Below, piece after piece: positions 8,354 to 36,111 of a DNA stretch of 64,000 bases. The notes beneath the pieces were generated by a model. That model worked only from the letters and a program-made list of their open reading frames with translations, was not told the origin of the DNA and made no database searches. Position 1 is the first letter of the stretch; every line of letters begins with the position of its first letter. The translations under genes and the position numbers were made by a program. This stretch comes from Natronobacterium haloterrestre (GTDB taxonomy: Archaea > Halobacteriota > Halobacteria > Halobacteriales > Natrialbaceae): assembly GCF_900112205.1 (NCBI RefSeq), contig NZ_FOKW01000002.1, positions 310,001 through 374,000 on the forward strand. Direction: 5' to 3'.

Positions 8354-8766
8354 CACTCAGAATAGGTATGCGAATCAGAAAACATTGTACTCTCTGGTTC
8401 AATCCGAAATATCGGACTGATACAGGGTTCTTCTTCTGAAATATGCTCGGAAATATTCATTTCCCGTGTAGTGGTTAACTCTTCAATAGTAACCTCCACA
8501 GTGTACGTTCCTGGTTCGTGAGGCGGAATCTCTACGCCTTCTCTAATATTTGGAGGAATGTGTGTCTCTTCATTATATACTGTTTCATCGTTGTGGATCC
8601 GTACAGTTGCAGTGTACTCCTCGTTAGTATTATTATCAATATCGACCTGATCCACTATACCAAGGGTGTCTTGGTTTGAAAATTCAGTACAACCAGCAAG
8701 TCCTCCTATCAAAACTACTGCAACGGATATCACCTGACGCCTGAAGGGCATATATGGATTACTCAT
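8350..8766 (-). CDS. small AT-rich lipoprotein, unknown function
   Basis: The protein has 138 residues. The N-terminus MSNPYMPFRRQVISVAVV has two arginines followed by a hydrophobic stretch, ending in the lipobox LAGC at about residue 26. This fits a haloarchaeal lipoprotein, perhaps Tat-exported. The rest is a beta-rich domain (EEYTATVRIHNDETVYNEE; PPHEPGTYTVEVTIEE) resembling Ig-like or CARDB-type folds, though no family was recognised. The gene is far more AT-rich than the chromosome around it, like its upstream neighbour. Both appear to be island cargo. Confidence 0.65.
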   Translation of the reverse strand: MSNPYMPFRRQVISVAVVLIGGLAGCTEFSNQDTLGIVDQVDIDNNTNEEYTATVRIHNDETVYNEETHIPPNIREGVEIPPHEPGTYTVEVTIEELTTTREMNISEHISEEEPCISPIFRIEPESTMFSDSHTYSEC

Positions 8767-8833
8767 CTAAATCTATGTGTTACTCCACATCAATTTATTA
8801 AATTCCTGGAGTGAAATACCCTTGGATACTCAA

Positions 8834-15945: not shown

Positions 15946-16090
15946 GACCTCCTCCTCCGCGTGAACGCGGAGGAATCCCACCACGGGATTTCAGGCCGAG
16001 TGTAGCGGCCTGTTGGTCTCAAGACGCATACGTTCCAAGCGTCGTCTGCTGGTTTTCAGCATCGGCTTGGCTGTCTTGTGGCCCGGTCAA
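15946..16090 (-). ncRNA. probable omega-RNA (TnpB guide RNA) at the IS right end
   Basis: In active IS200/IS605 elements the transcript overlapping the tnpB 3' end and right end folds into the guide scaffold for TnpB. The flanking bases just past the right end serve as guide. Here the tnpB 3' end, the right-end hairpin and a conserved GGGATT/CCCAC segment occupy this span. The guide would correspond to the flanking bases 15926-15945. This is inferred from family knowledge; no RNA evidence exists. The 5' boundary is arbitrary. Confidence 0.4.
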
Positions 16091-17389
16091 AGAGGTCGTT
16101 CGAAAGGCGCAAAGCGCCTTTCGTGATGACGAGAGAGCTTCGCTCTCTCGAACCACCCCATCCGTAGCCGAGTTCTTGGAAATCGAAGATTTCCAATGGT
16201 CGAAAAATCTTCGATTTTTCTCGACATCGTCACCGGCCTTCTGCCGGGAACTCCGGTCGCTTCGGCGGTGACTCTCTCCACTACGGTAGCGGTCTGCAAT
16301 GTTTATCGCCCCGTTCACGTCGGCTTGATACTCACCGACCCAACAGCCGTCGTTCGAGCATCTGAACGTCGCCTGTCGTGGCCGGTAGCCATGTTCACCG
16401 CAGGCGTGGCACGCCTTCGACGTGTTCCGGGGATTCACCGTCTCGACGGAAATCCCCTTCTCGGCGGCTTTGTAGCGAATCTGTGCGTGGAGCTTGGCAA
16501 AGCCCCACCCGTGCAACCGTCGATTCATGTACTCGCCGTAGTCCATGTTTTCGCGGATGTACGTCAGGTCTTCCAGCACCAGCACTGGGTTCTCGACAGA
16601 CTCGGCGTACTCAACGACCTCGCTGGTCACACGGTGGAACACATCGTCAATCTGGTCCCACAGCGAGTCGCCGTAGGACTCCGCGATTCGCTCACTGCCG
16701 CGCTGCTGAAGCCGTCGCTTGGCGGTGAAGTAGGTTTTGCGGAGCCGACGAACGGCTTTGCCGTCGTCGGCCCACAGGTGAGGGCGAACAGGAGAACCAG
16801 AGTCGTCGCGGTGACACACCGTGACGAGACTCGCTTCTCCGATGTCCACACCAATGGGCGTCCGCTCGTCGGCGGACGCCTCAGATTGGTCCTCCACGTC
16901 GCGGGTAGCGGTGACGTGGAGATACCACGTTCCGTCCCGCTCGAACAGCCGACTCTCACCCATCTCGGCGTCGTCTGCGTACACCGCTTCGAGCCAATCC
17001 CGCTGTTCGGGATTGGCGCGTGCCGGAATCCAGAGGTGGTAATCCTCGTGGTGCGGGATTTTGACGTACCACTCGATAGCGTTCTGTGGCTGGTGGTCAA
17101 GTTGCAGTCCCTCGTTAGTGAACCGCACCGGGTGGTCGTCGTGAAGCTCGTCGGCGTCGTAGCTGTTTCCACAGAGTTGTGGGACGTACTTCTTGAGGGC
17201 GTTTTTCGCGTAGCCGCTCAGGTCGTACTCGACAACCACGTCGTTGGTCGCTGACTGTGTGTCACAACCAGCGGCGAACGCGGCCTGAAGCGCCTGCTGG
17301 TAAGCGTCCCCTGTCTCACGAAGCTTCTGACGCTTGTGGACGTTCGGGTCCACAAGCTTCAGTTCGAGCGTTTTCGTGAGTTCGGTCAC
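16019..17389 (-). CDS. tnpB: TnpB RNA-guided nuclease of IS200/IS605
   Basis: This 456-residue TnpB starts at a GTG (VTELTKTLELKLVDPN) within the GTGA overlap with the tnpA stop. The RuvC catalytic residues look intact: GVDIGEASLVTV (Asp), LVLEDLTYIREN (Glu) and YQADVNGAINIADRY (Asp). Between them is a zinc finger, CHACGEHGYRPRQATFRC plus a further cysteine. TnpB proteins are omega-RNA-guided DNA endonucleases that help retain the element. After residue about 390 the tail is unusually long. It carries an in-frame block encoded by four palindromes before the typical ending TGPQDSQADAENQQTTLG. Confidence 0.93.
   Translation of the reverse strand: MTELTKTLELKLVDPNVHKRQKLRETGDAYQQALQAAFAAGCDTQSATNDVVVEYDLSGYAKNALKKYVPQLCGNSYDADELHDDHPVRFTNEGLQLDHQPQNAIEWYVKIPHHEDYHLWIPARANPEQRDWLEAVYADDAEMGESRLFERDGTWYLHVTATRDVEDQSEASADERTPIGVDIGEASLVTVCHRDDSGSPVRPHLWADDGKAVRRLRKTYFTAKRRLQQRGSERIAESYGDSLWDQIDDVFHRVTSEVVEYAESVENPVLVLEDLTYIRENMDYGEYMNRRLHGWGFAKLHAQIRYKAAEKGISVETVNPRNTSKACHACGEHGYRPRQATFRCSNDGCWVGEYQADVNGAINIADRYRSGESHRRSDRSSRQKAGDDVEKNRRFFDHWKSSISKNSATDGVVRESEALSSSRKALCAFRTTSLTGPQDSQADAENQQTTLGTYAS
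16101..16220. repeat. four perfect hairpins inserted in the tnpB 3' coding region
   Basis: Four perfect palindromes with 3-nt loops lie in 120 bp. They are a 10-bp stem (16101-16110/16114-16123, loop AAA), a 9-bp stem (16130-16138/16142-16150, loop TTC), a 9-bp stem (16176-16184/16188-16196, loop GAA) and an 8-bp stem (16202-16209/16213-16220, loop TTC). The reading frame remains open through all of them. They encode the atypical low-complexity part of the TnpB tail. Confidence 0.8.
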
Positions 17390-17826
17390 GCTTCGGCCCC
17401 CTTGTGTCGGCTGATGTAGTTTTCGACAGTTTCGCTGGAGACGTGCCCGGCTGTTCCGGCGTAGTAGCCGCGTGCCCACTGGATTTTCTCGCCGTCGTGG
17501 TCGGCGTGGCGGTGGTTGTATTTCCGTGAGGAAATGCCCTTGAACCAGTTGGCGAGCAGCGATGGGCTGTGTTTGGGCGGGCTACTGACGAACAGGTGAA
17601 CGTGGTCAGGCTGAACAGTCAGGTTTTGAATGTCCAAGCCTTTCTCGTCGGCAATTTCGTGGAGGATGGATTCCACACGGTCGGCAACCTCTCCCGTCAG
17701 TACCGCGTTGCGGTATTGAGCGGACCCCTGTTCCGCGATATCCGCAGAACCGTCGGTTCTGCGAGACTTCGGGAGCCACACTATGTGGTAGTTAAGATTG
17801 TAGGTTGCGTGCCGTGTGGTCTTCAT
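17386..17826 (-). CDS. tnpA: TnpA Y1 (HUH) transposase of IS200 type
   Basis: At 146 residues it is the usual IS200 TnpA length. The HUH metal site is QPDHVHLFVSSPP (His-hydrophobic-His). The nucleophilic tyrosine lies in TVENYISRHKG near the C-terminus. The N-terminal YNLNYHIVWLPKSRR is a hallmark of the family. All catalytic residues are present and the frame is unbroken, so the protein should be active. It excises and inserts single-stranded circles at hairpin ends and may mobilise related relics in trans, such as that at 2781. Confidence 0.95.
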   Translation of the reverse strand: MKTTRHATYNLNYHIVWLPKSRRTDGSADIAEQGSAQYRNAVLTGEVADRVESILHEIADEKGLDIQNLTVQPDHVHLFVSSPPKHSPSLLANWFKGISSRKYNHRHADHDGEKIQWARGYYAGTAGHVSSETVENYISRHKGAEA

Positions 17827-18081: not shown

Positions 18082-18684
18082 ATGAAACTCCAGCAGAACG
18101 TACGTCACTTCGCGTCCCGCAAGGCCCTCGAGACGCCGGTCGTTCGCTCGGCGGCCAAGTCGGGACTCGTCCGGCTTCACACGCGAGTCTTCCTGGGGAA
18201 GGCCGATCCGGAGCGGGCCGACGAACGGAAGGACCACCTCGACGGCCTGTTCGATGCGACGGTCGACACCTACCTCCGGGCGCTCCAGGACGGCTATTCC
18301 GAGGCCGAGGCCCGCGAGATCACCCACATCCAGGCCAACTTCGACTTCTACAACCACGGCTGGACCGAGATGATGGAGTTCCCGGTCGACGAACTCGAGG
18401 CCCACTACGAGCGCTACCGGGACTTCTTCGAGACGTGGGAGATCACGATCGACGACCCGCTTGGCCAGTTCGCGCCGCGGGACGGGCTGGCGCCGGCCCC
18501 GTCGACGCCCGAGAAACTCGAGGATCCCGAACACCCCCACGCGGAGGGCGGGTTCGCGGACGACGCCTACGTCGAGACCGAGGACGGCGAGCTCGTGGTC
18601 GGCGGACGCGACGGACCCGACGAGGTGGACGTCTCGAAAGCGGTCGGCGTCGAGGACTCGTCGGCCGATGCTGCCGAAAACTAG
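18082..18684 (+). CDS. conserved haloarchaeal protein (DUF6149-like)
   Basis: The protein has 200 residues and starts MKLQQNVRHFASRKALETP. It is soluble and largely helical, with a conserved-looking core YSEAEAREITHIQANFDFYNHG, then WTEMMEFPVDELEAHYERY, and a tail HPHAEGGFADDAYVETEDGE. I recognise it as a haloarchaeal family I believe is DUF6149; function unknown. Its 3' end overlaps the convergent binding-protein gene by 4 nt. Confidence 0.7.
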   Translation: MKLQQNVRHFASRKALETPVVRSAAKSGLVRLHTRVFLGKADPERADERKDHLDGLFDATVDTYLRALQDGYSEAEAREITHIQANFDFYNHGWTEMMEFPVDELEAHYERYRDFFETWEITIDDPLGQFAPRDGLAPAPSTPEKLEDPEHPHAEGGFADDAYVETEDGELVVGGRDGPDEVDVSKAVGVEDSSADAAEN

Positions 18685-20048
18685 GATCGAGCCTCCCGTA
18701 ACCACGGCGGTGCCTCGTACTCCGCCGTCGCCAGTTCGTCCGGCCAGATGACCTCCTGGACGCCAACCCCGGCGGCGTTCTCCTGCCACTGGAAGAACGG
18801 GAACTGTTCGGAGCCGTACTCGAGGTCGTGAGCGAACTCGTGGTCCGGACCGTAGAACTCGAGGGTTCCGACGGTGCCGGTAAACGAGATCGACTCGAGT
18901 TCGTCGACCAGTTCCCCGTCGTCGAAGGTCCCGGCGCTTTCGACGGCCTCGGCGTACAGCATCACCGCGTCGTAGGTGTGATAGCCGGTGTAGACCGGGT
19001 TCGACTCGTACTCTTCCCGATAGCTATCGACGAAGGGCTGGGTCTTCTCGGTGTTCCGGCTGCGGGCCGTCGCGCTAGTGTGGCCGATCCCGTACCGACA
19101 GGCTCCCCCGGTCTGCCGGTAGTAACTCGGCAACTGCATCGGGACGTGGATCCCGCCGAAGTCGAACGGTCGCGGCTGGGGTACCTTCCAGTCCCGCAGG
19201 GCGTCGGTCCCCGTGTGTGCGGTGGTGATCAACGCGATGTCCGCACCCGACTCCTGGACCTCGTCGTACAGTCCCGAGAAGTCGTCGGTCGCGGGCGGGT
19301 ATCGCCGCTCTAGCGTAACCCTGACGCCGGTGTCCTCGAGTCGTTCCTGGTAGACGTCCCACGGCCCTTCGGTCCAGTCGTAATCCTCGGCGAGGACGGC
19401 GACCGACTCCCAGCCGATCTCCGGGGCCATGTCTGCGAGGAAGTCGACGACGCCGCGCCCGAGGTCGCGGTCGTTCGTCGGGCCGACGCGAAAGTGATAC
19501 CTGTAGTCCTCGTACTGCCGACTGACCAGCCTGCTCGCGGCGGAGGTCGCCGCACCGGTCGTGAGGTGAAGCGTTTCCTGTTCGGCGACGTCGTCGAGGA
19601 CGTTCAACAGCGCGGGGCTGTCGAAGATCCCGACCGTCACGTCCGCGTCGTCCTCGAGGACGAGTTGCTGGTACTGGCGGCGGGCCTCGAGCGGACTCGC
19701 GTTCGTGTCGCGAACGGCGAGTTCGACCTCGTGGCCGGCGATCCCGCCGGCGTCGTTGAGTTCGTCGACGGCGATCCGCGCCGAGCGGGCCATCGACCGG
19801 CCGACGAAGTCGCCGTCCGGGTCCGGCGCGAGCAGGCCGATCGTCACCCCGTCGTCTGCCGTCTCGCTGCCGACCACGGCGCCGTACGCTTCCGTACCCG
19901 CGTCGTCCAGACACCCCGCGGACGCGACCGCGAGGGCTCCCGCCGCGCCCTCGAGAAACCGACGCCGACGCCGGCCGGTCGCCGTGTCGTTTCGCTCCCC
20001 GTGCTCTCCGGTTGCCCCCTCTTCGAACCCGTGCTCCGATCCGGTCAT
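18681..20048 (-). CDS. periplasmic-type ligand-binding lipoprotein (Bas-like, transducer-linked)
   Basis: The protein has 455 residues. A Tat signal with a basic RRRRRFLEGAAGALAVASAG ends in a lipobox cysteine (AGC), so it is exported folded and lipid-anchored. The mature part is a type I periplasmic binding fold of the branched-chain amino acid/amide class: VTIGLLAPDPDGDFVGRSM, GIAGHEVELAVRD, and VYTGYHTYDAVMLYAEA near the end. No ABC permease or ATPase genes are near. It is divergent from a chemotaxis transducer across 248 bp. This points to a chemoreceptor accessory role like BasB/CosB of Halobacterium rather than to import. Confidence 0.85.
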   Translation of the reverse strand: MTGSEHGFEEGATGEHGERNDTATGRRRRRFLEGAAGALAVASAGCLDDAGTEAYGAVVGSETADDGVTIGLLAPDPDGDFVGRSMARSARIAVDELNDAGGIAGHEVELAVRDTNASPLEARRQYQQLVLEDDADVTVGIFDSPALLNVLDDVAEQETLHLTTGAATSAASRLVSRQYEDYRYHFRVGPTNDRDLGRGVVDFLADMAPEIGWESVAVLAEDYDWTEGPWDVYQERLEDTGVRVTLERRYPPATDDFSGLYDEVQESGADIALITTAHTGTDALRDWKVPQPRPFDFGGIHVPMQLPSYYRQTGGACRYGIGHTSATARSRNTEKTQPFVDSYREEYESNPVYTGYHTYDAVMLYAEAVESAGTFDDGELVDELESISFTGTVGTLEFYGPDHEFAHDLEYGSEQFPFFQWQENAAGVGVQEVIWPDELATAEYEAPPWLREARS

Positions 20049-20296
20049 CTCGACCAGTATTTCTGTTTATAATTCTTAATAGTTGTGGGAGTGACGTGAT
20101 GGTGTGGATTCACTTTCGCGGAGTCGACCAGGAAATTGTGAAAGATAGTAACGATATATCGCCGATTTAAACAACGATATTCGTCCATTGGTCCCGTGCA
20201 GTTTCCGATCGAAGGCCGATCGCGATGCCAGCGGTTATCGGATCTGATAATAATACGTCATAATTTATATGTCGTTGTACTCATGTGTCCGGTGGC
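20049..20296. promoter_or_regulatory. divergent promoter region of binding protein and transducer 1
   Basis: This AT-rich 248-bp gap lies between oppositely oriented genes. On the plus side TTTATAT at 20264-20270 sits about 30 nt before the ATG at 20297, fitting a leaderless transcript. On the minus side the stretch around 20065-20090 (TTTATAATTCTTAATAG) is a plausible TATA region for the binding protein. No operator repeat is obvious. Confidence 0.5.
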
Positions 20297-23038
20297 ATGG
20301 ATTTCCCTCGAGGATTGGTACCGGCAGCCATCCGACGCAGGTACGCGGTCAAGTTCGGGATCGCGTTGCTCGTGCTCGGACTGTCGGTGGGGTTGATCGG
20401 GTTCGTGGCGACGGCCGGCATCACACACGAGGTCGAAGAACGGGTGCAGGACGACCACGCGGAGTTCGCCGGCCAGGAGGCACAGGGGCTACAGATGTGG
20501 AACGAGCAGAACGAGCACACGATCGGGGTGATCGCCTGGTCCGGCGTCGTCGCCGCCGACGATCCGGCGGCGATCCAGGAACGGTTCCTCGACTGGGAGG
20601 AACACTTAGACGCCGACACCTTCGCGATCAGTTACGTCGACACCGACGAGGGGACCGTCCTCGCGAGCACCGAGGGCGACCTCCGCGAGGCGTCCGCCGA
20701 CGAGATCGAGAACGTGCCGGAGGAGGCCTACGAGAGCGCCACCGAACAGGTGCCCTGGGTCTCGAGTCCGTACGTGCTCGAGGGCGAACTCGGCGAGGAG
20801 ACCGCGGTCATCACGTACGTCCTCTCGGTCCCCGGACAGGACGACAGGGCGATCGTCTACACCGCCGACCTCGAGGCCTACGGGAGCCAGTTCCAGGACG
20901 ACGAGCAGGTGACGACGGTCGTCGTCGACGGGGCGGATCGGATCATCCTCGACGACGCCGGCTACGGCGACGAGTACGAGACGCTCAACAGCGCCTACGA
21001 CGGCGATGCCGGCCTCCTCGAGGCTGCACGGACGGAAGGGGCGAGCACGCAGGAACTCGACGGTGCCCCGAGCGTCCTCGAGAGCTACGGGTTCGAGGCC
21101 GACGAGTACGTCGCCAGCGCGGCCCGTGTCTCGGGCACGGACTGGGTCGTCGTCACCCACGAGCCGATCGAGGAGACCTACGGCTTCGTCGCAGCGGTCA
21201 ACGAGTGGGGACTGATCGCGACCGCCGTCGGGGTCCTCCTGATCGGCGCGGTCGGGGCCGTGGTCGGCCGGAACACGGCCTCGTCGATCGACAAACTGAC
21301 CCGGAAAGCCGAACGGATGGAGGAAGGTGACCTCGACGTCGATCTCGAGACGAAACGGATCGACAACATCGGCCGGCTCTACGACGGCTTCGACTCGATG
21401 CGGGTCGCTCTGCGCGACCAGATCGAGGAGGCCGAGGCTGCCCGCGAGGAAGCCGAACACGAGCGCGAACGCGTCGAGGCGATCAACGAACGGCTGGAGC
21501 GGAAGGCCGACGAGTACAGCGACGTGATGGAGGCCGCCGCCGATGGCGACCTGACCGCGCGGATGGACGTCGACGGCGGCGACGCGGACGACGAGGCCAT
21601 GGCCGCGATCGCGGCCGAGTTCAACGAGATGCTCGCCGAGATCGAAACCACGGTGGCCGAGGCCGAGCGGTTCGCCACCGCCGTCGCGACCGCCTCCGAA
21701 CAGGTCACGGCCTCGAGCGAGGAGGTCCGGTCGGCCTCCCGGCAGGTGACCGAGTCGATCCAGGAAATCTCCGACGGCGCGGAACGGCAGAACGAGGCGC
21801 TCCAGTCGGTCGATGGGGAGATGAGTGCCCTCTCGACGACCACGGAGCAGATCGCCGCCTCCTCGAACGAGGTCGCGGATCTCGCCGAACGGACCGCCGA
21901 AACCGGCGAAAGCGGACGCGAGGCGGCCCGGGACGCGGTCGTGGCGATGGACGAGATCGAGGACGACGCCAAGGGAGCCGTGACGGAGATCCGTCGTCTC
22001 GAGGAAGAGGTCCAGCAGATTGACGAACTGATCGCGACCATCTCGGAGATCGCCCGCCAGACGAACATGCTGGCGCTGAACGCGAACATCGAAGCCTCCC
22101 GCTCGGCGTCCGGCGAGGACGACGAAGGGTTCGCGGCGGTCGCCCAGGAGGTCAAGGCGCTGTCCGAAAACGTCGCCGAGGCGGCCGACGAAGCCGAGAA
22201 ACGCCTCGAGGCGATCCGGGAACGGACCGAACGCTCCGCGGCGGAGGTCGAAGACACCACGGCCGAAATCGAAGATGCCGGTCGGAAAGTCCAGGAAGCG
22301 GTCGACGCGCTCGAGGAGATCGCGGACCTGGCCGGCGAGACGAACGTCGGCGTGCAAGAGATTTCGGCGGCCACGGAGGAACAGGCCGCGTCGACCGAGG
22401 AGGTCGTCGCGATGGTCGACGGCGCGGCGACGATCTCCGAGGAGACGACTGCCGAGGCAGAGAACGTCGCGGCGGCGGCCGAGGAACAGACCTCCGCGCT
22501 CACCGAGGTTACCGAATCGGCCTCGAGTCTCTCGGAGCAAGCGGGGCGGCTCTCGGAGGCGCTCGACCGGTTCGAGACCGACGCCGAACCCGAACCCGAC
22601 GGGGCCGGGCCGGAACTCGAGACGCCGGCGGTCGATGGGGCCGGCGAGAACGGCCAGTCCGAGTCGACCGTCGATTCCGGAACTGCCGACGGTTCGGTCG
22701 CCGATTCCACAGGGGGAGCCGACGACGAATCGGTCGGTCTCGAGGGCATCGAAGACCCGGAGTCGGTGCGGGAAAGTGAGGGCGAACAGGGACAGGTAAA
22801 CGACGCGGGGGACGGCGTCGGTTCCGATCCCCTCGGGGTCATCGATGGGGCCGACGGCCGTATCGAGGACGATCCGGCGGGCGACGGCGCGGGTGTCGAC
22901 GCAACCCGGGAGTCGACCGACGGCGGTGATGCCGGCGCTGACACCGTCGACCGAGACGCTGACACGACCGAGCAATCGGACGACGATTCAACCGACGGCG
23001 AGGACGTGTTCACGTTCGGCGACGGATCGGACGGATGA
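20297..23038 (+). CDS. methyl-accepting chemotaxis transducer 1 (Htr)
   Basis: The protein has 913 residues from ATG 20297; a GTG at 20285 is a weaker alternative. It has TM1 at about 20-42, an extracellular sensor domain at about 45-300, and TM2 near 305-325 (WGLIATAVGVLLIGAVGAVVG). HAMP modules follow (MEEGDLDVDLETKRIDNIGRL and a second ADGDLTARMD). Then come the cytoplasmic helices with the hairpin tip QTNMLALNANIEASR near 585-598, the CheA/CheW contact. A low-complexity acidic tail of about 145 residues ends in DVFTFGDGSDG. It likely signals with the divergent binding protein. Confidence 0.93.
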   Translation: MDFPRGLVPAAIRRRYAVKFGIALLVLGLSVGLIGFVATAGITHEVEERVQDDHAEFAGQEAQGLQMWNEQNEHTIGVIAWSGVVAADDPAAIQERFLDWEEHLDADTFAISYVDTDEGTVLASTEGDLREASADEIENVPEEAYESATEQVPWVSSPYVLEGELGEETAVITYVLSVPGQDDRAIVYTADLEAYGSQFQDDEQVTTVVVDGADRIILDDAGYGDEYETLNSAYDGDAGLLEAARTEGASTQELDGAPSVLESYGFEADEYVASAARVSGTDWVVVTHEPIEETYGFVAAVNEWGLIATAVGVLLIGAVGAVVGRNTASSIDKLTRKAERMEEGDLDVDLETKRIDNIGRLYDGFDSMRVALRDQIEEAEAAREEAEHERERVEAINERLERKADEYSDVMEAAADGDLTARMDVDGGDADDEAMAAIAAEFNEMLAEIETTVAEAERFATAVATASEQVTASSEEVRSASRQVTESIQEISDGAERQNEALQSVDGEMSALSTTTEQIAASSNEVADLAERTAETGESGREAARDAVVAMDEIEDDAKGAVTEIRRLEEEVQQIDELIATISEIARQTNMLALNANIEASRSASGEDDEGFAAVAQEVKALSENVAEAADEAEKRLEAIRERTERSAAEVEDTTAEIEDAGRKVQEAVDALEEIADLAGETNVGVQEISAATEEQAASTEEVVAMVDGAATISEETTAEAENVAAAAEEQTSALTEVTESASSLSEQAGRLSEALDRFETDAEPEPDGAGPELETPAVDGAGENGQSESTVDSGTADGSVADSTGGADDESVGLEGIEDPESVRESEGEQGQVNDAGDGVGSDPLGVIDGADGRIEDDPAGDGAGVDATRESTDGGDAGADTVDRDADTTEQSDDDSTDGEDVFTFGDGSDG
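22200..22527 (+). repeat. 328-bp tract identical to 26516-26843 (copy 1)
   Basis: By direct reading this segment of transducer 1 is identical, base for base, to the same domain position in transducer 2 at an offset of 4316 bp. On both sides the two genes differ at synonymous and non-synonymous sites. It covers the descending part of the signalling domain. Confidence 0.85.
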
Positions 23039-23409
23039 GACTCGAGCCGGGAGGAACCCGAACCGGACGAGCGGGGCCGCCTGTTACCTTTCGTCGCCGG
23101 CCGCAGTTCGTCAGGGTGCTGTCGGGGAGCGTGACGTCGCGGTCATCCGCGAACGACCTCCGTCGGTAGCGTTTCGCTTCCGACGGCGAGAACGGTGCTC
23201 GGCCTGCCGTCGAATCCGTTTCTCGAAACGGCTGGCTCGTATATCGTCACAAGTCGTTTTTGCCTCCGTTTCTCTTCTCCCGTCGAACGGTACCTGCTGT
23301 GTATATTGGCACAATATATCAACCGAACCATGAAGGTCTATTTCAACAACTCTGGAGTAGTCATATGAGATTCCATTAATCTAATATATGGTTGGTTAGA
23401 TCTGCAAAC
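23039..23409. other. intergenic gap with promoter for binding protein 2
   Basis: This is 371 bp without a supportable gene. The only signal seen is the TATA-like TAATATAT at 23382-23389, about 24 nt before the ATG at 23410. The stretch 23260-23400 is relatively AT-rich, as expected of a haloarchaeal promoter region. No hairpin terminator or repeat was recognised. Confidence 0.5.
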
Positions 23410-24678
23410 ATGAACAGGAATTCAACCCGACGGCGACTGCTCGCGGGGCTTGCCGGCTCCGCCGTCGCCGCCTTCGCAGGTTGTAACGACGTCGTCTCCG
23501 ATGGCTCAACAGGCCTCACCTCCTCCGAAACCGATCGTGCCAGTACCGATCGAACGATCAAACTCGGTACCATGCTCCCTCTGAGCGGCCCACGAAGCGC
23601 CGTCGGGGAGGGAATCCGCGACGCCGCCGTTTTGCCGATCGAACAGGCCCGCGACGGCCTCGAGATTCCCCTCGAGATCGAGCATACGGCCGCCGACACG
23701 GAAAGCGACCCGGCGGCCGCGGCTCAGGCGGCCGCCTCGCTCGTGGACGACGGGTATCCGATGGTGACCGGCCCGCTGGACTCCGACATCGTCCTGCAGG
23801 CCACCCAGCAGGTGTTGATCCCCTACCAGACCGTCTGTTGTTCGCCCGGGGCGACCACTCCCACGCTCACTACGCTCAACGACGGCGGGTTCGTCTTCCG
23901 GACTGCTCTCTCGGACAACGTCCAGGGGACTGTCATGGCCGAGATCGCAACCGCCGAACTCGGCCACGACACCGCCGCCACCCTCTATGTCAACAACGAC
24001 TACGGGTGGCAACTCAGCCAGGCGTTTAGCCGTGCCTTCCGCGACCGCGGAGGCACCGTCACCGACCAGATTCCCGTCGACGTCACCGCAGATTCCTACG
24101 CAGACGCGCTCGAACGCGTAGGCGAGGCCGACCTGGCGATTCCGGCGATCTACCCCGAGATGGCCCAGACGCTGTTTACCGATCTCGGGCCCTCTCCCGA
24201 CCTCGACGTTCTCTGTACCGACGCCCTGCGGGAGCCCGACCTCTCCGAGCAGGTCGACTACTCGCTGAACGGCATCAAAGGTACCGCGCCGCTGATCGAC
24301 GGGCCTGGCACCGAGACGTTCGTCGACCGCTACACTGCCGAGTACGGCACCGAGCCCGGGCTGTTCGCGTACTACGCCTACGATGCCACCGCAGTGTTGC
24401 TGCTGGCCAACGCTTACGCCGGCCAGAACGACGGTCAGGCGATCCAGAGCGCGATCCACTCGGTGACCAGCCCCGGCGGCGAAACGATCACGCCGGAGTC
24501 GATCGCCGACGGCATCACCCTCGCCGCACAGGGGTCGGCCGTCGAATACCGCGGCGTGGCCAACGATACCGGCTTCGACGACAACGGCGACCCGACCGAG
24601 ACCACCTTCGAGTACTGGGAGTTCGACGACAGCGCCGACGGCGGAATCGCCGAACTCGACCGCATCGACCCCTATTAA
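23410..24678 (+). CDS. periplasmic-type ligand-binding lipoprotein (transducer-linked)
   Basis: The protein has 422 residues. The signal NSTRRRLLAGLAGSAVAAFAGC is a Tat lipoprotein signal ending in a lipobox. The mature protein is a type I periplasmic binding fold: IKLGTMLPLSGPRSAVGEGI, LYVNNDYGWQLSQAFSRAF, and an AYDATAVLLLANAYAG helix. That is the branched-chain amino acid-binding class. The start at 23410 rather than an in-frame ATG at 23392 follows from the TATA box. It ends 6 nt before transducer 2, so the two are surely co-transcribed. This is the arrangement of BasB/BasT in Halobacterium, where the binding protein presents ligand to the receptor. Confidence 0.88.
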   Translation: MNRNSTRRRLLAGLAGSAVAAFAGCNDVVSDGSTGLTSSETDRASTDRTIKLGTMLPLSGPRSAVGEGIRDAAVLPIEQARDGLEIPLEIEHTAADTESDPAAAAQAAASLVDDGYPMVTGPLDSDIVLQATQQVLIPYQTVCCSPGATTPTLTTLNDGGFVFRTALSDNVQGTVMAEIATAELGHDTAATLYVNNDYGWQLSQAFSRAFRDRGGTVTDQIPVDVTADSYADALERVGEADLAIPAIYPEMAQTLFTDLGPSPDLDVLCTDALREPDLSEQVDYSLNGIKGTAPLIDGPGTETFVDRYTAEYGTEPGLFAYYAYDATAVLLLANAYAGQNDGQAIQSAIHSVTSPGGETITPESIADGITLAAQGSAVEYRGVANDTGFDDNGDPTETTFEYWEFDDSADGGIAELDRIDPY

Positions 24679-24684
24679 CAGACA

Positions 24685-27243
24685 ATGTCACTCGCAACAA
24701 CACTCGTCCCCTCGTTCATCCGGCGCAGTTACCTCGCCAAGTTCGTGCTCGCCATCCTGACTATCGTCCTCGTCATCGGCGTCGTCGGCGCTGGCAGCTA
24801 CGTCGCCATCGACGATACCGTCCGGGCCGACGCCAACGCCCAACTCGAGACGACGGCGGAGATGCAAGCGGACGAAATCAGCACCTGGATGGAATCGATG
24901 TCCGTCCAGACACGCACCGCATCGTCCTCACCCGTCCTTCAGGAGGGGAACCCACAGGAGGTCCAGGGCCACCTCGTCGAAGAACAGGCTCGCATGGGCG
25001 TCAACGTTCGCGCGATCCACTACGTCGACACCGACGCAGACGAAATCGTCACCAGCACGACAGCCTCCTACCGCGACCGCTCGCTCGCGGACCTCGAGGA
25101 GCCGTGGCGTGACCACGACTTCGACGCCGAGTTCGAGTTAGACGAGGAGGTCTGGTACACGGAGTCGGCCTACGAGTCGCCGACGTTGAACGACCAGGTG
25201 ATGGCGTTCGCCAGCCCGGTGCCGGACCGCGACGACAGGGTCGTCGTTGTCATCGGTACCCTGGAGTACCAGATCGAACAGCTCCACCTGGAGAACACGT
25301 CCGAATCGACGTCCATCCTCGATGCGGACGGCAACGACGTCTTCCGGGCCGACGAGGCATCGTCCGACGTCGACGACGATGCTCTCGAGGCGGCGCTTGG
25401 TGGCCGAGTGGGCCTGGTAAACGACGAGGAGACGGTTCAGGCGTACGTCCCGGTGAGCGACACGCGGTGGGTGGCGGTCTCGAGCGTGCCGACCGACGAG
25501 GCCTACGGCGTGGCCGCAAGCGTCCGGAACAACGTGTTGACGATGCTGCTGGTGAGCCTGGGTGGACTGAGCCTGGTCGGGGTCGTCCTCGGGCGACAGA
25601 CGGTCGGACCGCTCCGGACCCTGCAGGACCGGGCTGCGAAGATGGAATCCGGTAATCTCGAGGTCGACCTCGAGACGAATCGGATCGACGAGATCGGCCA
25701 GTTGTTCGACGGCTTCGATTCGATGCGGGTCGCCCTGCGCGACCAGATCGAGGAGGCCGAGGCCGCCCGCGAGGAAGCCGAACGCGAGCGTGAACGCGTC
25801 GAGGCGATCAACGTTCATCTCGAGGAGAAGGCCGACGAGTACAGCGACGTAATGGGAGCAGCCGCCGCCGGTGACCTGACCGCGCGGATGGATACCGACA
25901 GCACCAACGAGGCGATGGCGGAGATCGCTGCGGAGTTCAACGAGATGCTCGCCGAGATCGAGGCTACGGTGGCAGGGCTAAACCGGTTCGCGACGGAGGT
26001 CGCGACCGCATCCGAGCAGGTGACCAGTTCGAGCGAGGAGGTCCGATCGGCCTCCCAGCAGGTCTCCGAGTCGATCCAGGAGATTTCCGACGGCGCGGAG
26101 CGCCAGAACGAGTCCTTGCAGTCGGCCAACCAGGAGATGAGCGCCCTCTCGACGACGACCGAAGAGATCGCCGCCTCCTCGAACGAGGTTGCCGATCTCG
26201 CGGAGCGAACGGCCAACACCGGCGAGGACGGACAAGAACCGGCTCGAGAGGCGATCGCGGCGATGGACGAGATCGAGGTCGAGGCCGGCGACGCGGTCGC
26301 GGAGATGCGCCGCCTCGAGGAGGAGGTCCAGCAGATCGACGAACTGATCGCGACGATTTCCGAGATCGCCCGCCAGACGAACATGCTGGCGCTGAACGCG
26401 AACATCGAGGCTTCGCGGTCGGCATCCGGCGAGGACGACGAAGGGTTCACGGCGGTCGCCCAGGAGGTCAAGACCCTCTCCGAGGACGTCGCCGAGGCGG
26501 CCGACGAGGCCGAGGAACGCCTCGAGGCGATCCGGGAACGGACCGAACGCTCCGCGGCGGAGGTCGAAGACACCACGGCCGAAATCGAAGATGCCGGTCG
26601 GAAAGTCCAGGAAGCGGTCGACGCGCTCGAGGAGATCGCGGACCTGGCCGGCGAGACGAACGTCGGCGTGCAAGAGATTTCGGCGGCCACGGAGGAACAG
26701 GCCGCGTCGACCGAGGAGGTCGTCGCGATGGTCGACGGCGCGGCGACGATCTCCGAGGAGACGACTGCCGAGGCAGAGAACGTCGCGGCGGCGGCCGAGG
26801 AACAGACCTCCGCGCTCACCGAGGTTACCGAATCGGCCTCGAGCCTCTCCGAGCAGGCGGTCCAGCTTTCCGAGGCGCTCGATCGGTTCGACACCGACGC
26901 CGAACCCGCCGACCTCGAGACGGCGGCCGGAGTCGAGGCGAGCGCCGACGCCGCTTCCGGGGACGACGAGACGCCGTCCGCGACGGCGGGGGACGATGGC
27001 GCGGCAGTCCTCGGAGCTATCGAGGAGTCGGAGCCGGACCGGGAGCCGAATCCGGCGGACGACGGCGACGCTGATCCGCTCGATCCCGACGTCGACTCCG
27101 CGGATCGACGCACCGACGATGACGACGAGGCCGAAACCGGATCCCGAAGCCAAGGCCGGGCCGGAAACGGACTCGAGGACGCTGACGCCGACGGAGAAAC
27201 GGACGGAGACGTGTTCACGTTCGAGGACGACCCCGAGGAGTAA
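24685..27243 (+). CDS. methyl-accepting chemotaxis transducer 2 (Htr)
   Basis: The protein has 852 residues. TM1 is at about 20-40 (VLAILTIVLVIGVVGAGSY). The extracellular region of about 240 residues has a Cache-like ending (AYVPVSDTRWVAVSSVPTDEA). TM2 lies near 283-303. HAMP (KMESGNLEVDLETNRIDEIG), the hairpin tip QTNMLALNANIEASR and an acidic tail with DVFTFEDDPEE follow. The extracellular domain is unlike those of transducers 1 and 3, while the cytoplasmic half is nearly the same. That suggests domain swapping with a shared signalling module. It is translationally close (6 nt) to the binding protein upstream. Confidence 0.93.
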   Translation: MSLATTLVPSFIRRSYLAKFVLAILTIVLVIGVVGAGSYVAIDDTVRADANAQLETTAEMQADEISTWMESMSVQTRTASSSPVLQEGNPQEVQGHLVEEQARMGVNVRAIHYVDTDADEIVTSTTASYRDRSLADLEEPWRDHDFDAEFELDEEVWYTESAYESPTLNDQVMAFASPVPDRDDRVVVVIGTLEYQIEQLHLENTSESTSILDADGNDVFRADEASSDVDDDALEAALGGRVGLVNDEETVQAYVPVSDTRWVAVSSVPTDEAYGVAASVRNNVLTMLLVSLGGLSLVGVVLGRQTVGPLRTLQDRAAKMESGNLEVDLETNRIDEIGQLFDGFDSMRVALRDQIEEAEAAREEAERERERVEAINVHLEEKADEYSDVMGAAAAGDLTARMDTDSTNEAMAEIAAEFNEMLAEIEATVAGLNRFATEVATASEQVTSSSEEVRSASQQVSESIQEISDGAERQNESLQSANQEMSALSTTTEEIAASSNEVADLAERTANTGEDGQEPAREAIAAMDEIEVEAGDAVAEMRRLEEEVQQIDELIATISEIARQTNMLALNANIEASRSASGEDDEGFTAVAQEVKTLSEDVAEAADEAEERLEAIRERTERSAAEVEDTTAEIEDAGRKVQEAVDALEEIADLAGETNVGVQEISAATEEQAASTEEVVAMVDGAATISEETTAEAENVAAAAEEQTSALTEVTESASSLSEQAVQLSEALDRFDTDAEPADLETAAGVEASADAASGDDETPSATAGDDGAAVLGAIEESEPDREPNPADDGDADPLDPDVDSADRRTDDDDEAETGSRSQGRAGNGLEDADADGETDGDVFTFEDDPEE
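26516..26843 (+). repeat. 328-bp tract identical to 22200-22527 (copy 2)
   Basis: This is the transducer 2 copy of the identical tract described for transducer 1. The corresponding part of transducer 3 (about 29260-29580) differs at many positions, so the identity is specific to this pair and not forced by protein constraint. Confidence 0.85.
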
Positions 27244-27359
27244 CACGGCGTCGGACCCTCGGATCGTCGGCGACAGCCCGGGTTCCGCTACCGGGTAGCT
27301 ATCAGCTTCGATAACTGCGTACCATAACTTATGTAGTGACGAGACTGTCCGTGGCTATT

Positions 27360-30200
27360 ATGAGTCTCGTCCGACGGCTAGTACCCGCAGTTATCCGCCG
27401 ACGGTACGCGGTCAAGTTCGCGATCGCGTTGCTCGTTCTCGGGGTAACTGTCGGGATGATCGGGTTCGTTGCCACGGCGACGATCACCGACGAAGTCGAA
27501 GAGAGCGTCCAGGACGACCATCGAACGGCCGTCCAGCAGGAAGCACAGAGTCTACAGATGTGGCACGAACAGAACGAGCGAACGGCGTCGCTGATCGCGA
27601 CTTCCGACGTGGTCGCGTCCGACGACGCCGCGGCGATCGAGAGCAGCCTCGGGGACTGGCGGCTGGAACACCGCACCGAGGTGTTCGAGATTTCGTACGT
27701 CGACACCGGGGAGCGTGAAGTCCTCGCCAGTACGGCCGACCGGTTCCGCGGCGAGTCGACCGACGTCCTCGAGAGCGTCGACGACGAGGCCTACGACGCG
27801 GTCGGTGAGGACGGTACCTGGGTCTCCGAGCCGGCGCTCGTCACCGGTCTCAGCGACGAGGAGACGCCGGTCGTCTCCTACGTCGTGGCATCGGACGACG
27901 ACCGCGCGATCGTCTACTCCGCGGACCTGATGTCGTACATGCACAGCGTCCACGTCGACGACCACGTCACCATGATGGCGCTTTCCGGCGAGGGGACGGT
28001 GATGGCCGACAGCGAGAACCTCGGCGAGAACTACACCACTTTCGGCCTCGAGTACGGCGACCGGTCGGTGCTCTCGCTGGCCGACGGCGAGGGTGGCGGC
28101 GCGGACGTCGTCGAGGGAACGGCCTCGGGTGCGCTCGCGGACGGCACGTACGGGTTCGACGCCGACGAGTACGTCGTCAGTGCCGCGTCGGTCGAGGGTA
28201 CCGACTGGACGATCGTCTACCACGAACCGACCGAGCACGCCTACGGGTTCGTCAACGACGTCAACGAATGGGGGATGATCGCGACCGCGGTCAGCGTCCT
28301 CACGATCGGCCTGATCGGGGCCGTGCTGGGACGGAACACCTCCCGCTCGATCGACAAACTGACCCGGAAAGCCGAACGGATGGAGGAAGGCGACCTCGAC
28401 GTCGATCTCGAGACGAAACGGATCGACAACATCGGCCGGCTCTACGACGGCTTCGACTCGATGCGGGTCGCTCTGCGCGACCAGATCGAAGAGGCCGAGA
28501 CCGCCCGCGAAGAGGCCGAGCAGGAACGCGAACGCGTCCAGCAGATCAACGATCACCTCGAGGAGAAGGCCGGCGAGTACTGTGCGGTGATGGGCGACGC
28601 TGCCGACGGCGACCTGACCGTGCGGATGGACGCAGACAGCGAGAACGAGGCGATGGAGACGATCGCCACCGATTTCAACGGGATGCTCGCCGAGATCGAG
28701 GCCACGGTCGCGGGGCTGAACCAGTTCGCGACGGAGGTCGCGACCGCCTCCGAACAGGTCACGGCCTCGAGCGAGGAAGTCCGCTCGGCGTCCCAGCAGG
28801 TGACCGAGTCGATCCAGGAGATCTCCGACGGCGCGGAACGCCAGAACGAGTCGCTCCAGTCGGTCAACCAGGAGATGAGCGCCCTCTCGACGACGACCGA
28901 AGAGATCGCCGCCTCCTCGAACGAGGTCGCCGACATCGCCGAACGGACCGTCAACACCGGCCAGGGAGGCCAGGAGGCGGCCCGCGAAGCGATCGCGGCG
29001 ATGGACGAGATCGAGGTCGAGGCCGGCGACGCGGTCGCGGAGATGCGCCGCCTCGAGGAGGAGGTCCAGCAGATCGACGAACTGATCGCGACCATCTCGG
29101 AGATCGCTCGCCAGACGAACATGCTGGCGCTGAACGCGAACATCGAGGCCTCCCGCTCGGCGGGCGGCAACGACGACGAAGGGTTCGCGGCGGTCGCCCA
29201 GGAGGTCAAGGCCCTCTCCGAGGACGTCGCCGAAGCGGCCGACGAGGCCGAGGAACGCCTCGAGGCGATTCGTGACCGGACCGAACGCTCGGCTGCGGAG
29301 GTCGAGGGAACCAGTGCGGAGATCGAAGACGCCGGTCGGAAAGTCCAGGAAGCGGTCGATGCACTCGAGGAGATCACGGATCTGGCCGGCGACACGAACG
29401 TCGGCGTCCAGGAGATCTCGGCGGCGACCCAGCAGCAGGCCGCGTCGACCCAGGAGGTCGTGGCGATGGTCGACGATGCGGCGACGATCTCCGAGGAGAC
29501 GACCGCCGAGGCGGAGAACGTCGCGGCGGCGGCCGAGGAACAGACCTCCGCGCTCACCGAGGTCACCCAGTCGGCCTCGAGCCTGTCCGAGCAGGCGGTC
29601 CAGCTTTCCGAGGCGCTCGACCGGTTCGACACCGACGCCGAACCTGAGGACCTCGCCTCGGACGTCGCCGTCGACGTCGGCGAGTTCGCGACGGACGTGG
29701 TCGCCGAAGCCGAAGGTGAGGACGCGGCAGAGACCGAGGTCGACGACGCGCCGGCCGAGATCAGCGCCGACGAGATCCTCGGCCTCGAGACGGAGGGCGA
29801 CGCGGAAGCAGACGTCGAAACCGACGACGGGACGGACCCACTCGAGTTCGACGACCAGTCGGCGGACGAGGACGCGGATCCGCTCGCGGTGTCGGGAACG
29901 ACGACGGCCGATGACGACGTGGTCGAGGCCGACACGGAGCCGATCGCGTTCGACGACGAGGCGCCGTCCGACGCCGCAGATCCGCTCTCCCCGGTCGACG
30001 AGGGGGCGGACGACGCCGCGGCCGTGACGGACGCCGGCGGCTCGGACCCACTCGCGCCGACCGGTTCCGACGGCGAGGCTGACGACGAGAGCGAAACCGA
30101 ACACGACGACGTATTCACGTTCGGTGAAGGCGGGGACGAAAGCGAAGGAGAGGACGAAGACGAAGACGAGGACGAGGACCCAACCGACGACTCCGAGTAA
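27360..30200 (+). CDS. methyl-accepting chemotaxis transducer 3 (Htr)
   Basis: The protein has 946 residues from ATG 27360 (MSLVRRLVPAVIRRRYAVKF); an ATG at 27336 is also in frame. The TATA-like CATAACTTA at 27323-27331 favours 27360. TM1, sensor, TM2 and first HAMP are close relatives of transducer 1 (MEEGDLDVDLETKRIDNIGRL is shared exactly). The hairpin tip QTNMLALNANIEASR is present. The acidic tail of about 190 residues carries DDVFTFGEGG and then an Asp/Glu run. No binding protein is attached. It probably senses its ligand directly or borrows a binding protein from its neighbours. Confidence 0.92.
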   Translation: MSLVRRLVPAVIRRRYAVKFAIALLVLGVTVGMIGFVATATITDEVEESVQDDHRTAVQQEAQSLQMWHEQNERTASLIATSDVVASDDAAAIESSLGDWRLEHRTEVFEISYVDTGEREVLASTADRFRGESTDVLESVDDEAYDAVGEDGTWVSEPALVTGLSDEETPVVSYVVASDDDRAIVYSADLMSYMHSVHVDDHVTMMALSGEGTVMADSENLGENYTTFGLEYGDRSVLSLADGEGGGADVVEGTASGALADGTYGFDADEYVVSAASVEGTDWTIVYHEPTEHAYGFVNDVNEWGMIATAVSVLTIGLIGAVLGRNTSRSIDKLTRKAERMEEGDLDVDLETKRIDNIGRLYDGFDSMRVALRDQIEEAETAREEAEQERERVQQINDHLEEKAGEYCAVMGDAADGDLTVRMDADSENEAMETIATDFNGMLAEIEATVAGLNQFATEVATASEQVTASSEEVRSASQQVTESIQEISDGAERQNESLQSVNQEMSALSTTTEEIAASSNEVADIAERTVNTGQGGQEAAREAIAAMDEIEVEAGDAVAEMRRLEEEVQQIDELIATISEIARQTNMLALNANIEASRSAGGNDDEGFAAVAQEVKALSEDVAEAADEAEERLEAIRDRTERSAAEVEGTSAEIEDAGRKVQEAVDALEEITDLAGDTNVGVQEISAATQQQAASTQEVVAMVDDAATISEETTAEAENVAAAAEEQTSALTEVTQSASSLSEQAVQLSEALDRFDTDAEPEDLASDVAVDVGEFATDVVAEAEGEDAAETEVDDAPAEISADEILGLETEGDAEADVETDDGTDPLEFDDQSADEDADPLAVSGTTTADDDVVEADTEPIAFDDEAPSDAADPLSPVDEGADDAAAVTDAGGSDPLAPTGSDGEADDESETEHDDVFTFGEGGDESEGEDEDEDEDEDPTDDSE

Positions 30201-33918: not shown

Positions 33919-35010
33919 ATGCTCATGGTTGATAATAATCGGCGGAGGATGATTCAAATCGGTGGAATAGCAGTTGGCTCAATAGTTGGATCGGGTATTG
34001 GGATGGCAAAGTCTGAAAGCAATACTGGTCTAGCACTTCGAGGAGACGCTTCAGACCCTATTTCAAAATCGGAGATATTCTCAAGAAGAAGCCAAGAAAT
34101 AAATAAACACCTGGATTATAGTACTATAAATAATGGTGTAGTGAGCAACCCAAAAACACCAGAAAATGATATTATCGTTGCGTATAATCTTGACTTTGTA
34201 GGAGAAGGAATAGATGAATACTTCGGAATTGTTTCGAGTGAAACAGGGGATAAAGCTATATCTGGGTCAGATAATTCGGAAAATAGTGTCCAAAAAATTC
34301 ACAAAAGGGCAAATAATAAAAAGAACAAATCATTTAAGAGGAGAGCATAACTTAGAACTGGATTAGATTCAATCAAAGATAAATCAAATAAATCCCATAA
34401 TGAATATGATTTCGATGAATTTGATTTAATACATAATTATAATCATGATAAAGCAGACAGTCGTGGAAATGTTACGAACTATGAAGTGGTTTATAGAAAT
34501 CACTCTGACCCCAGTGTTCCTATCTGTGCCATGGACGTACAAGTAGAACCAGAGATCGGTGGTGATAAACAAGATCGTACCCGTATAAGACATGATTGGA
34601 ATTCAGATCATGCTGAGTTAGAGTCATATGGTCCTGGTAATACTGAAGGGACTTCTTCTGAGGGGTGGTCACTTGGATTTAGTTCTGATGGTATAGTGAA
34701 TGTAGGACGTACATGGAGTAGGACAGAACCAGATTTAGATGTTAACAATGAGAGTGAAAAGAGTCTTGATCTAGCAAGACACAAGTTTGATTTCAGTGGT
34801 GATTTGAAGAGTAATACTGTTCGAGTTAACAATTCAAGCGTAGCAGAATTCGATTCGGTAGACAGTCCTGATGGTGTAGCTGTCACGGTTGAATGGATTG
34901 TGGTCTATGAAGGTACAAGTCATACTTATGAAACAGAATTCCTAACAAATGGTGGGGGGAGTGGAGGCGGTGGGTGTAACCCACGGCCATGCCCGACTAC
35001 CAAGGAATGA
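33919..35010 (+). pseudogene. AT-rich Tat-secreted protein gene interrupted by an in-frame TAA
   Basis: A single frame stays open from ATG 33919 (or 33925) to TGA at 35010 except for one TAA at 34348-34350. The first part (143 codons) starts with a twin-arginine signal, NNRRRMIQIGGIAVGSIVG. After the stop the same frame continues as LRTGLDSIKDKSNKSHNEYD, then VVYRNHSDPSVPICAMDVQ and a beta-rich end with a glycine-rich GGGSGGGGCNPRPCPT tail. A nonsense mutation (for example CAA to TAA) is the simplest explanation. Internal translation from a later ATG (34486) is possible. Composition is strongly AT-rich, suggesting foreign origin. It lies between pdxS and a lipoprotein gene. Confidence 0.65.
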
Positions 35011-35031
35011 GGCTAATACATTAATTACTTT

Positions 35032-36111
35032 ATGCGAAACGATACGCGACGTGCGTTTCTTTCATCCAGTGGCACTATTTTGTTCAGTGGGTGTAGCGTA
35101 TTGGACTATCGGACCGATTCAGGGTCGTCGTACACAGAACTAGCCGAAAAATGGTCGGTCGACCAAGAGTTCAGCATCACTACTTCGCCGCTCGTACTGA
35201 ATGACCGTATTTACGTTTCTACCAGAGGGCGTCTGAAATCCATAGGGATAGGATCGGACAGCTACCCGGAAACGGTGTTCGAAACGGGGATAACGGCAAC
35301 CCCCGCAATAGCTGGCGATACGATCGTCCTTCCTACATTCGAAGGCAATGGGATGCTGTACGCGGTTGGTTCGGATGGAGACATCGACTGGCAATGCGAT
35401 CTTCCGGGTGGTCGACCGTTCGCTCCAATACTCTCCGATGACGACCTATTCATCAAATCGAGATCGGCAGTAACAGCACTATCGTATCAGCAGCAAACCG
35501 TCGAATGGTCGGTCGACACACCGAGGTATCCAGCCACTAGCGGTGGTCGCTGGGCCGATCTGTCACCTGCCGTAACCGAGGATCACGTCTATGTTCCCCG
35601 CAAAGACGGCCTGCAGTGTCTCGAGCGGGCGACCGGCGACGACATCTGGCATGAGCGAACGGACCCGGTCGCGACGACGCCAGCCGTTGCTGACGGGCAG
35701 GTCTACGCTCCGACGATAGGGGACGGGGTCGTCGCAATGGACGCCGACACCGGTACCATCGAATGGACGACTGAGGAGTTCGAGTGTTGGACGACGCCCG
35801 TCGTCGACGACGGCGTGGTCTACACACCGGCCCGGTTCGATCTCGTCGCGCTCGACGCCGACAGCGGTGTCGAGCAGTGGCGGTATACCGATCCGGGACT
35901 CGGCGGGCGGAGTTACACGAACCTCACACTGATCGACGATCTGCTCGTTGCTGGTTCGACCGGCTACGCGGTGGTCACCGTCTCGACCGACGGGACTGTT
36001 CGGGCGATTGCGGACGGTTCGTCGACGGAGTTCTCACACGTCATCGAAGACGGCACGGTCTACGTCGCAACGCGCGACGGTCTCAGTGCCTACAGCCTCG
36101 AAAGCGAGTGA
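35032..36111 (+). CDS. PQQ-type beta-propeller Tat lipoprotein
   Basis: The protein has 359 residues. The signal NDTRRAFLSSSGTILFSGCS is a Tat lipoprotein signal. The mature part has repeated propeller blades with the pattern A-x-D-x-x-T-G-x-x-x-W (RATGDDIWHERTDP; DADTGTIEWTTEEF; DADSGVEQWRYTDP) about every 40 residues. It is typical of PQQ-like or BamB-like extracellular propellers in haloarchaea, probably a binding or scaffold protein rather than a dehydrogenase. The 5' third is less GC-rich than the rest, as if the gene borders acquired DNA. Confidence 0.8.
   Translation: MRNDTRRAFLSSSGTILFSGCSVLDYRTDSGSSYTELAEKWSVDQEFSITTSPLVLNDRIYVSTRGRLKSIGIGSDSYPETVFETGITATPAIAGDTIVLPTFEGNGMLYAVGSDGDIDWQCDLPGGRPFAPILSDDDLFIKSRSAVTALSYQQQTVEWSVDTPRYPATSGGRWADLSPAVTEDHVYVPRKDGLQCLERATGDDIWHERTDPVATTPAVADGQVYAPTIGDGVVAMDADTGTIEWTTEEFECWTTPVVDDGVVYTPARFDLVALDADSGVEQWRYTDPGLGGRSYTNLTLIDDLLVAGSTGYAVVTVSTDGTVRAIADGSSTEFSHVIEDGTVYVATRDGLSAYSLESE

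Follow-up and report, generated by a model that had tools for sequence, protein, structure and literature searches.

A haloarchaeal locus with two probable binding-protein-dependent chemoreceptors, one of them a chimera, and a third receptor that probably works alone

Introduction

When binding proteins are encoded beside several chemoreceptors, do they serve all of them, or does each have a receptor of its own? The question is raised by a locus of the haloarchaeon Natronobacterium haloterrestre, in a stretch of 64,000 nucleotides that we call the window (positions 310001-374000 of contig 16 of a 4.5-Mb, 31-contig draft genome). Genes for two type I solute-binding proteins, BP1 and BP2, stand there among genes for three chemotaxis transducers, T1, T2 and T3 (Table 1). 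A preliminary description of the sequence saw in these five genes a hub of three receptors on two binding proteins. Our results point, with reasonable confidence, to two chemoreceptors that depend on binding proteins in the manner of BasB/BasT, and to one receptor that probably works alone.

The BasB/BasT pair of Halobacterium salinarum was reportedly described by Kokoeva et al. The same design of binding protein and transducer is found in CosB/CosT of Halobacterium, which serves compatible solutes, CosB belonging to a glycine-betaine-binding family. In Escherichia coli, the receptors Trg, Tar and Tap read loaded periplasmic binding proteins, and Trg reads two of them.

The two pairings are conserved in relatives

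We searched 121 genomes of the family for the two pairs, and counted neighbours for BP1/T1 matches of at least 50% identity and BP2/T2 matches down to ~38-39%; the counts refer to the matches listed. Among these, 52 of the 55 T1-type sensors (at least 57% identity) had BP1 homologues close by, in one copy (31 cases), two (13) or three (8), and the orientation was divergent in every paired relative. BP2 homologues (at least 46% identity) had a T2-type sensor directly downstream in 48 of 48 cases, with 5-31 nt between the ends of homology, and two genomes of another family (G320 and G358) have the BP2-T2 pair too. The pairing is thus conserved; its lack of conservation was one of two outcomes that the preliminary description had named as refuting. 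Its account of the window itself also stood: the five genes lie where it placed them, with BP1 and T1 divergent, T2 starting 6 nt downstream of the end of BP2 and T3 alone. All five are intact open reading frames, and their order is confirmed by G039, a genome of the same genus.

The BP1-T1 pair has a fixed address: a FAD oxidoreductase gene, DUF6149, in some cases a major facilitator superfamily (MFS) gene, the BP1 copies and T1, homoserine kinase, in some cases a radical SAM gene, and PdxS. Among the first 20 loci fetched, all 19 BP1-T1 loci keep this address in the main, and the 20th (L105) is an ATP-binding cassette (ABC) operon. A gene that by eye is MFS-like (~421 aa) is conserved in many relatives in the interval from DUF6149 to the receptor (L138-L145, e.g. 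L140:8307-9572) and is absent from the window.

Importer genes are absent near the locus, as had been noted: a search of the own genome with the permease family PF02653 gave 12 matches, none of them on this contig. The same holds for relatives, where no permease or ATPase gene was found within 3.5 kb of receptor-linked homologues in the fetched loci. The other refuting outcome, ABC genes that go with the binding proteins in relatives, is thus not seen for these receptor-linked homologues; the more distant ones mostly have ABC genes beside them. The own genome has eight Peripla_BP_6 genes, one with an internal stop. Four adjoin Liv-type permeases (C15:79946, C20:346082, C13:204278 and C15:464747) and the other four adjoin transducers (the two in the window, C16:71183 and C15:305519), so that every permease-free Peripla_BP_6 gene adjoins a transducer. 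Transducers number 23 in this genome (24 matches, two being parts of one gene).

We also noticed that the two binding-protein/transducer pairs outside the window lie at C16:70072-72262 (L043) and C15:305399-307590 (L044), the genes of the latter overlapping by 4 nt, and that the Peripla_BP_6 gene with an internal stop (L048, C15:464747-465226) stands beside intact Liv-type permease and ATPase genes.

Conserved pairing is accompanied by co-divergence. Over 20 loci, with distances corrected for two flanking genes and related rows not independent, the T1 sensor and the nearest BP1 are correlated in their distances (partial r 0.36, Mantel p 0.0002). The corresponding value is r 0.00 between the T1 sensor and T1's own signalling domain, and r -0.33 between that domain and the nearest BP1. 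The co-divergence of sensor and nearest BP1 favours a contact between the two.

One sensor family and a chimeric transducer

HAMP and MCPsignal domains are present in T1, T2 and T3. The common sensor and HAMP sequence ascribed to T1 and T3 was confirmed, the sensors being 54% identical and the HAMP segments 90-97%. The sensor of T2 had been called unrelated, which did not survive a profile comparison: the T1/T3 and T2 sensor families match with probability 99.9 and E 2e-36 (26% identity over 324 columns), and on this basis the T2 sensor is a distant homologue of the other two. The sensor of the H. salinarum transducer discussed below is 24-30% identical to those of T1-T3, and by these comparisons the receptor side is one homologous sensor family. 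A structural model of the T1 sensor (pLDDT 77, the predicted local distance difference test) matches double-CACHE (dCache) domains with E ~1e-7. The dCache_1 matches of T2 and T3 are weak, under the curated cut-off; the fold is thus assigned to T1 by its model, and to T2 and T3 by weak Pfam matches together with profile homology. In both pairs, an exported, lipid-anchored binding protein adjoins a conserved transducer with an extracellular sensor, HAMP and MCP domains.

T2 changes its affinities along its length. Its first ~330 residues are 70-93% identical to the own genome's second BP2-T2 pair and 17-47% to T1. Between ~331 and 720, most blocks of T2 match T1 at 77-100% identity (with 60% at 511-540), and from residue 361 its identity to the second pair is mostly down to 40-67%. 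By these blockwise identities T2 is a chimera, with its own sensor and a signalling domain of T1/T3 type. Within that half, T1 and T2 share an identical tract of 328 bp. The longest identical run between T1 and T2 of G039 is 56 bp, and the window's T1 is only 73-74% identical to that of G039 at T2 residues 631-660, inside the tract. The 328-bp identity and the low match of T1 to its G039 counterpart therefore argue for recent gene conversion between T1 and T2, probably with T2 as the donor, though an artefact of the 31-contig draft assembly is possible.

T3 and the history of the locus

In a tree of receptor sensors from the larger fetched loci, T3 groups with receptors of G039, G058 and G105. 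All four rows of this clade lack a BP1 directly adjacent as their own partner, and in G058 and G105 the T3-type receptor occupies the same address with no BP1 at all. T3 therefore probably works without BP1. The BP1-T1 and T3 forms are alternatives at one address: G013, a genome of the same genus, carries BP1-T1 alone at this place, and G058 carries the T3 form alone. Among the genomes compared, only the window and G039 have BP2-T2-T3 in the interval from T1 to homoserine kinase, and elsewhere in relatives BP2-T2 pairs stand alone. The window and G039 thus appear to combine the BP1-T1 form, the T3 form and a BP2-T2 pair.

These results speak against the proposed hub. The T3 clade is without BP1 in four of four rows; BP2-T2 is a separately recruited second pair, and just two of the genomes examined have it between T1 and T3; and the many-to-one relation seen in relatives runs the opposite way, with up to three BP1 paralogues per T1.

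Origin of the binding proteins

BP1 and BP2 have their nearest outgroups mostly in ABC operons of Liv type, which are the usual setting of the homologues below ~50% identity. The BP1 homologues that tblastn matched at 48-50%, from three genomes of one genus, are in ABC operons, and 10 of the 11 fetched at 33-43% are ABC-linked (11 fetched out of more than 60 listed below 45% identity). Likewise, six of the seven fetched BP2 homologues at ~40% that have no T2 are ABC-linked. Trees of full-length proteins (minimum length 420 aa for BP1 and 400 aa for BP2) place the receptor-linked binding proteins in clades apart from the ABC-linked ones; for some tandem BP1 copies the receptor-linked label was taken from their coordinates, and the label of L170 was set by hand.

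Halobacterium salinarum DSM 3754 has a single Peripla_BP_6 gene, which overlaps by 4 nt the gene of an 805-aa transducer. We take this pair to be BasB/BasT, from the length of BasT and because it is the only such gene. Neither binding protein is an orthologue of this presumed BasB: BP2 was rejected as one (BLASTP E 0.011; AU, or approximately unbiased, test p 0.002), and BP1 matches it at 1e-5 over 132 aa. The BasB/BasT precedent invoked earlier consequently holds as a working type and as a pairing without transporter, and does not extend to orthology. Receptor-linked proteins of the BP1 and BP2 types were rejected as one clade by the AU test (p 4e-76), and so was the grouping of the BP2 type with three Halobacterium-family proteins (p 0.002). 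These rejections indicate that transporter binding proteins joined transducers at least three times, as BP1, as BP2 and as the presumed BasB.

Fold, signal and possible ligands

The description of BP1 and BP2 as Tat-lipoprotein (twin-arginine translocation) type I binding proteins is upheld by Peripla_BP_6 matches (5e-49 and 1e-31, respectively) and by RR...C Tat-lipobox starts in both. In BP1, the residues R28, R29, G45 and C46 of this start are invariant across 31 homologues, and an AlphaFold model (pLDDT 85) has the type I binding-protein fold. A fold search did not single out a ligand for BP1: leucine-, urea-, aromatic- and amide-binding proteins match alike. For BP2, the best solved relatives are branched-chain amino-acid binders, and in sequence alignment one of its aspartates falls on an aspartate of 4gnr and 3td9, two solved amino-acid-binding proteins. 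We take this site to be the position of the ammonium-binding acid of LivJ. The LivJ-like family and the retained aspartate therefore weakly suggest a hydrophobic amino acid as the likely ligand of BP2. In the corresponding part of BP1, H278 and H301 are invariant; these histidines near the acid position give a faint hint that its ligand may be other than an alpha-amino acid.

A conserved receptor tail

Among rows of at least 50% identity, 31 of the 32 T1/T3-type receptors with a complete tail carry DVFTF near the C-terminus, behind an acidic linker that varies, the exception (L103) having SFTF. In the window the motif follows long acidic linkers in all three transducers. Of the T2-type receptors elsewhere, most are without it or carry F[TS]F variants. 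The motif does not behave as a general tag: its DNA pattern occurs in 59 of 332 genomes of the class, seven of them outside the family, where five of the seven matches are not a transducer tail and two (L186 and L187) gave no reading. A survey reports 0 pentapeptide receptors among 2730 from Halobacteriales under a strict C-terminal pattern, xZxxZ with Z being F, W or Y (PMC7390727). DVFTF differs from such NWETF-type pentapeptides in lying before the last residues and in having V at position 2. One CheR was found in the own genome. As a guess, DVFTF is a candidate docking motif.

Elsewhere in the window, an IS200/IS605-type element with two open reading frames that by eye are TnpA- and TnpB-like (16019-17826, minus strand) lies between the FAD oxidoreductase and DUF6149 genes, an interval that is short in G039 (L086). 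Two low-GC islands (8001-10000 and 34001-36000; 47-48% against ~66%) encode secreted proteins of unknown role.

Table 1. Genes and sequence features of the receptor locus, in positions of the window.
Feature	Position	Strand	Description
BP1	18681-20048	-	Tat-lipoprotein type I solute-binding protein, Peripla_BP_6 (urea/amide/branched-chain class); inferred partner of T1
BP1/T1 divergent intergenic region	20049-20296		248 bp
T1	20297-23038	+	Transducer with double-CACHE sensor, HAMP and MCP signalling domain; ATG 20297, alternative GTG start 20285
Identical tract in T1	22200-22527	+	328 bp, equal to T2 26516-26843
DVFTF motif of T1	23003-23017	+	Near C-terminus, after variable acidic linker
BP2	23410-24678	+	Tat-lipoprotein type I solute-binding protein, LivJ-like Peripla_BP_6; partner of T2; ATG 23410, reading frame opens at TTG 23392
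T2	24685-27243	+	Chimeric transducer: its sensor belongs to the BP2-partner family, and the later HAMP and signalling domain are of T1/T3 type
Identical tract in T2	26516-26843	+	328 bp; probable donor
DVFTF motif of T2	27208-27222	+	Near C-terminus
T3	27360-30200	+	T1-related transducer of a clade found without BP1; ATG 27360, alternative GTG start 27336
DVFTF motif of T3	30108-30122	+	Near C-terminus

Discussion

Our results suggest that BP1 and BP2 are lipid-anchored descendants of ABC-importer binding proteins that would no longer serve a transporter. Loaded BP1 would dock on T1, at its double-CACHE sensor, and loaded BP2 in the same way on T2, and the signal would pass through HAMP to the signalling domain and on to CheA/CheW. 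Gene order, its conservation, the trees, the chimera and the conversion tract come from our own data; we infer the docking, the chemotaxis output and the ligands from homology, from BasB/BasT and from co-purification with Che proteins in Halobacterium. There, BasB, CosB and the putative binding proteins OE2170R and OE2196F co-purify with Htr transducers, and Htr3/BasT is listed with its signals and co-purification (PMC3579733). T3 would most likely sense by itself, or via a partner encoded elsewhere. As for origin, the alternative BP1-T1 and solitary T3 forms of one receptor locus may have been combined with a BP2-T2 pair whose T2 had its signalling half replaced by the T1/T3 type, and gene conversion may keep the signalling halves alike.

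Several observations weigh against dedicated partnerships of this kind. Among the matches listed, three of the 55 T1-type sensors lack an adjacent BP1 (G083, G100 and G116), and further T1-clade receptors without BP1 occur in G043, G050, G063 and G075; hence T1 may not strictly need BP1, and the partnership can be lost. Co-divergence is weaker with the farthest BP1 copy (r 0.21, p 0.066). Chemoreceptor dCache domains often bind ligands directly. On the side of the binding proteins, one BP1 homologue is an orphan (G004 C6), another (L176, 40% identity) has no ABC genes within 20 kb, and the closer L146 is an orphan like L176. The binding protein of L044 is of unsure placement, with support 47 in one tree and grouping with BP2 at 100/98 in the other, and the amino-acid pocket positions compared with LivJ were judged from sequence alignment.

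Some of these points would fit dCache sensors that bind small ligands directly, the binding proteins merely modulating or scavenging. The fold of T1 is that of directly binding dCache sensors, and T3-type and some T1-clade receptors do without BP1. Still, we find this unlikely, given how strongly the pairing is conserved, and because the aromatic/arginine amino-acid motif described for dCache_1AA sensors (PMC10104139) does not look intact in the T1/T3 or T2 alignments, which were judged by eye rather than by formal alignment to PctA. A combinatorial hub, with each of the three transducers reading both binding proteins, could draw on the closeness of the T1 and T3 sensors and on the example of Trg with its two binding proteins. 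It is quite unlikely, because the T2 sensor is only 17-33% identical to those of T1 and T3 over most sensor blocks, T3-clade receptors exist without BP1 and BP2-T2 pairs stand alone elsewhere.

It could also be that BP1 and BP2 are orphan importer proteins which feed a distant Liv-type ABC transporter and are merely co-regulated with the transducers. Their fold and family are of importer type, and the 12 Liv-type permease matches elsewhere in the genome include pairs on C8 and C12 with no listed Peripla_BP_6 gene beside them. Yet transducer pairing is kept almost throughout the relatives, receptor-linked and ABC-linked proteins fall in separate clades, all permease-free Peripla_BP_6 genes of this genome adjoin transducers, and the T1 sensor co-diverges with the nearest BP1; we regard this explanation as very unlikely. 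Two binding-protein-dependent receptors and a solitary one thus remain the reading that we prefer.

The design is known from BasB/BasT: a Tat-lipoprotein Peripla_BP_6 gene beside the gene of a transducer with two transmembrane segments and a dCache-type sensor, without permease, with homologous sensors and a gene order as in BP2-T2. The present locus differs in that BP1 is divergent rather than upstream, and in relatives often present in two or three copies. BP1 and BP2 share fold and family with the binding proteins of Liv/HAAT ABC importers (the fold group of LivJ, UrtA and AmiC), but have no permease or ATPase genes beside them. The binding proteins read by Trg, Tar and Tap are shared with importers, whereas those of the haloarchaeal locus appear dedicated to their receptors, and in relatives the receptor gene can have as many as three paralogues next to it. 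What is new are the members, their separate origins, the arrays of one to three copies, the alternative receptor forms and the chimera. The literature within our reach on haloarchaeal binding-protein/transducer surveys, archaeal receptor tails and chemoreceptor gene conversion, with most subscription journals outside its scope, held no direct prior report of the locus.

More speculatively, the T1/T3 address might be an evolvable cassette, in which one dCache receptor switches between acting by itself and reading one to three dedicated binding-protein paralogues. DVFTF, carried by all its receptors on an acidic linker of 55-300 residues, would then be a new archaeal docking motif that holds an adaptation enzyme in place, like NWETF in bacterial receptors. 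We hold this idea to be doubtful. If DVFTF were a true dock for an adaptation enzyme, it would fill a gap in Halobacteriales, in which the survey cited above found none.

Little is known of how receptors gain binding-protein partners. In haloarchaea, one receptor family seems to have recruited importer binding proteins on at least three separate occasions. At a single locus the number of partners ranges from none to three, and a domain swap is visible in one of the receptors. The evolution of receptors and their partners may thus become testable by comparison of natural variants.

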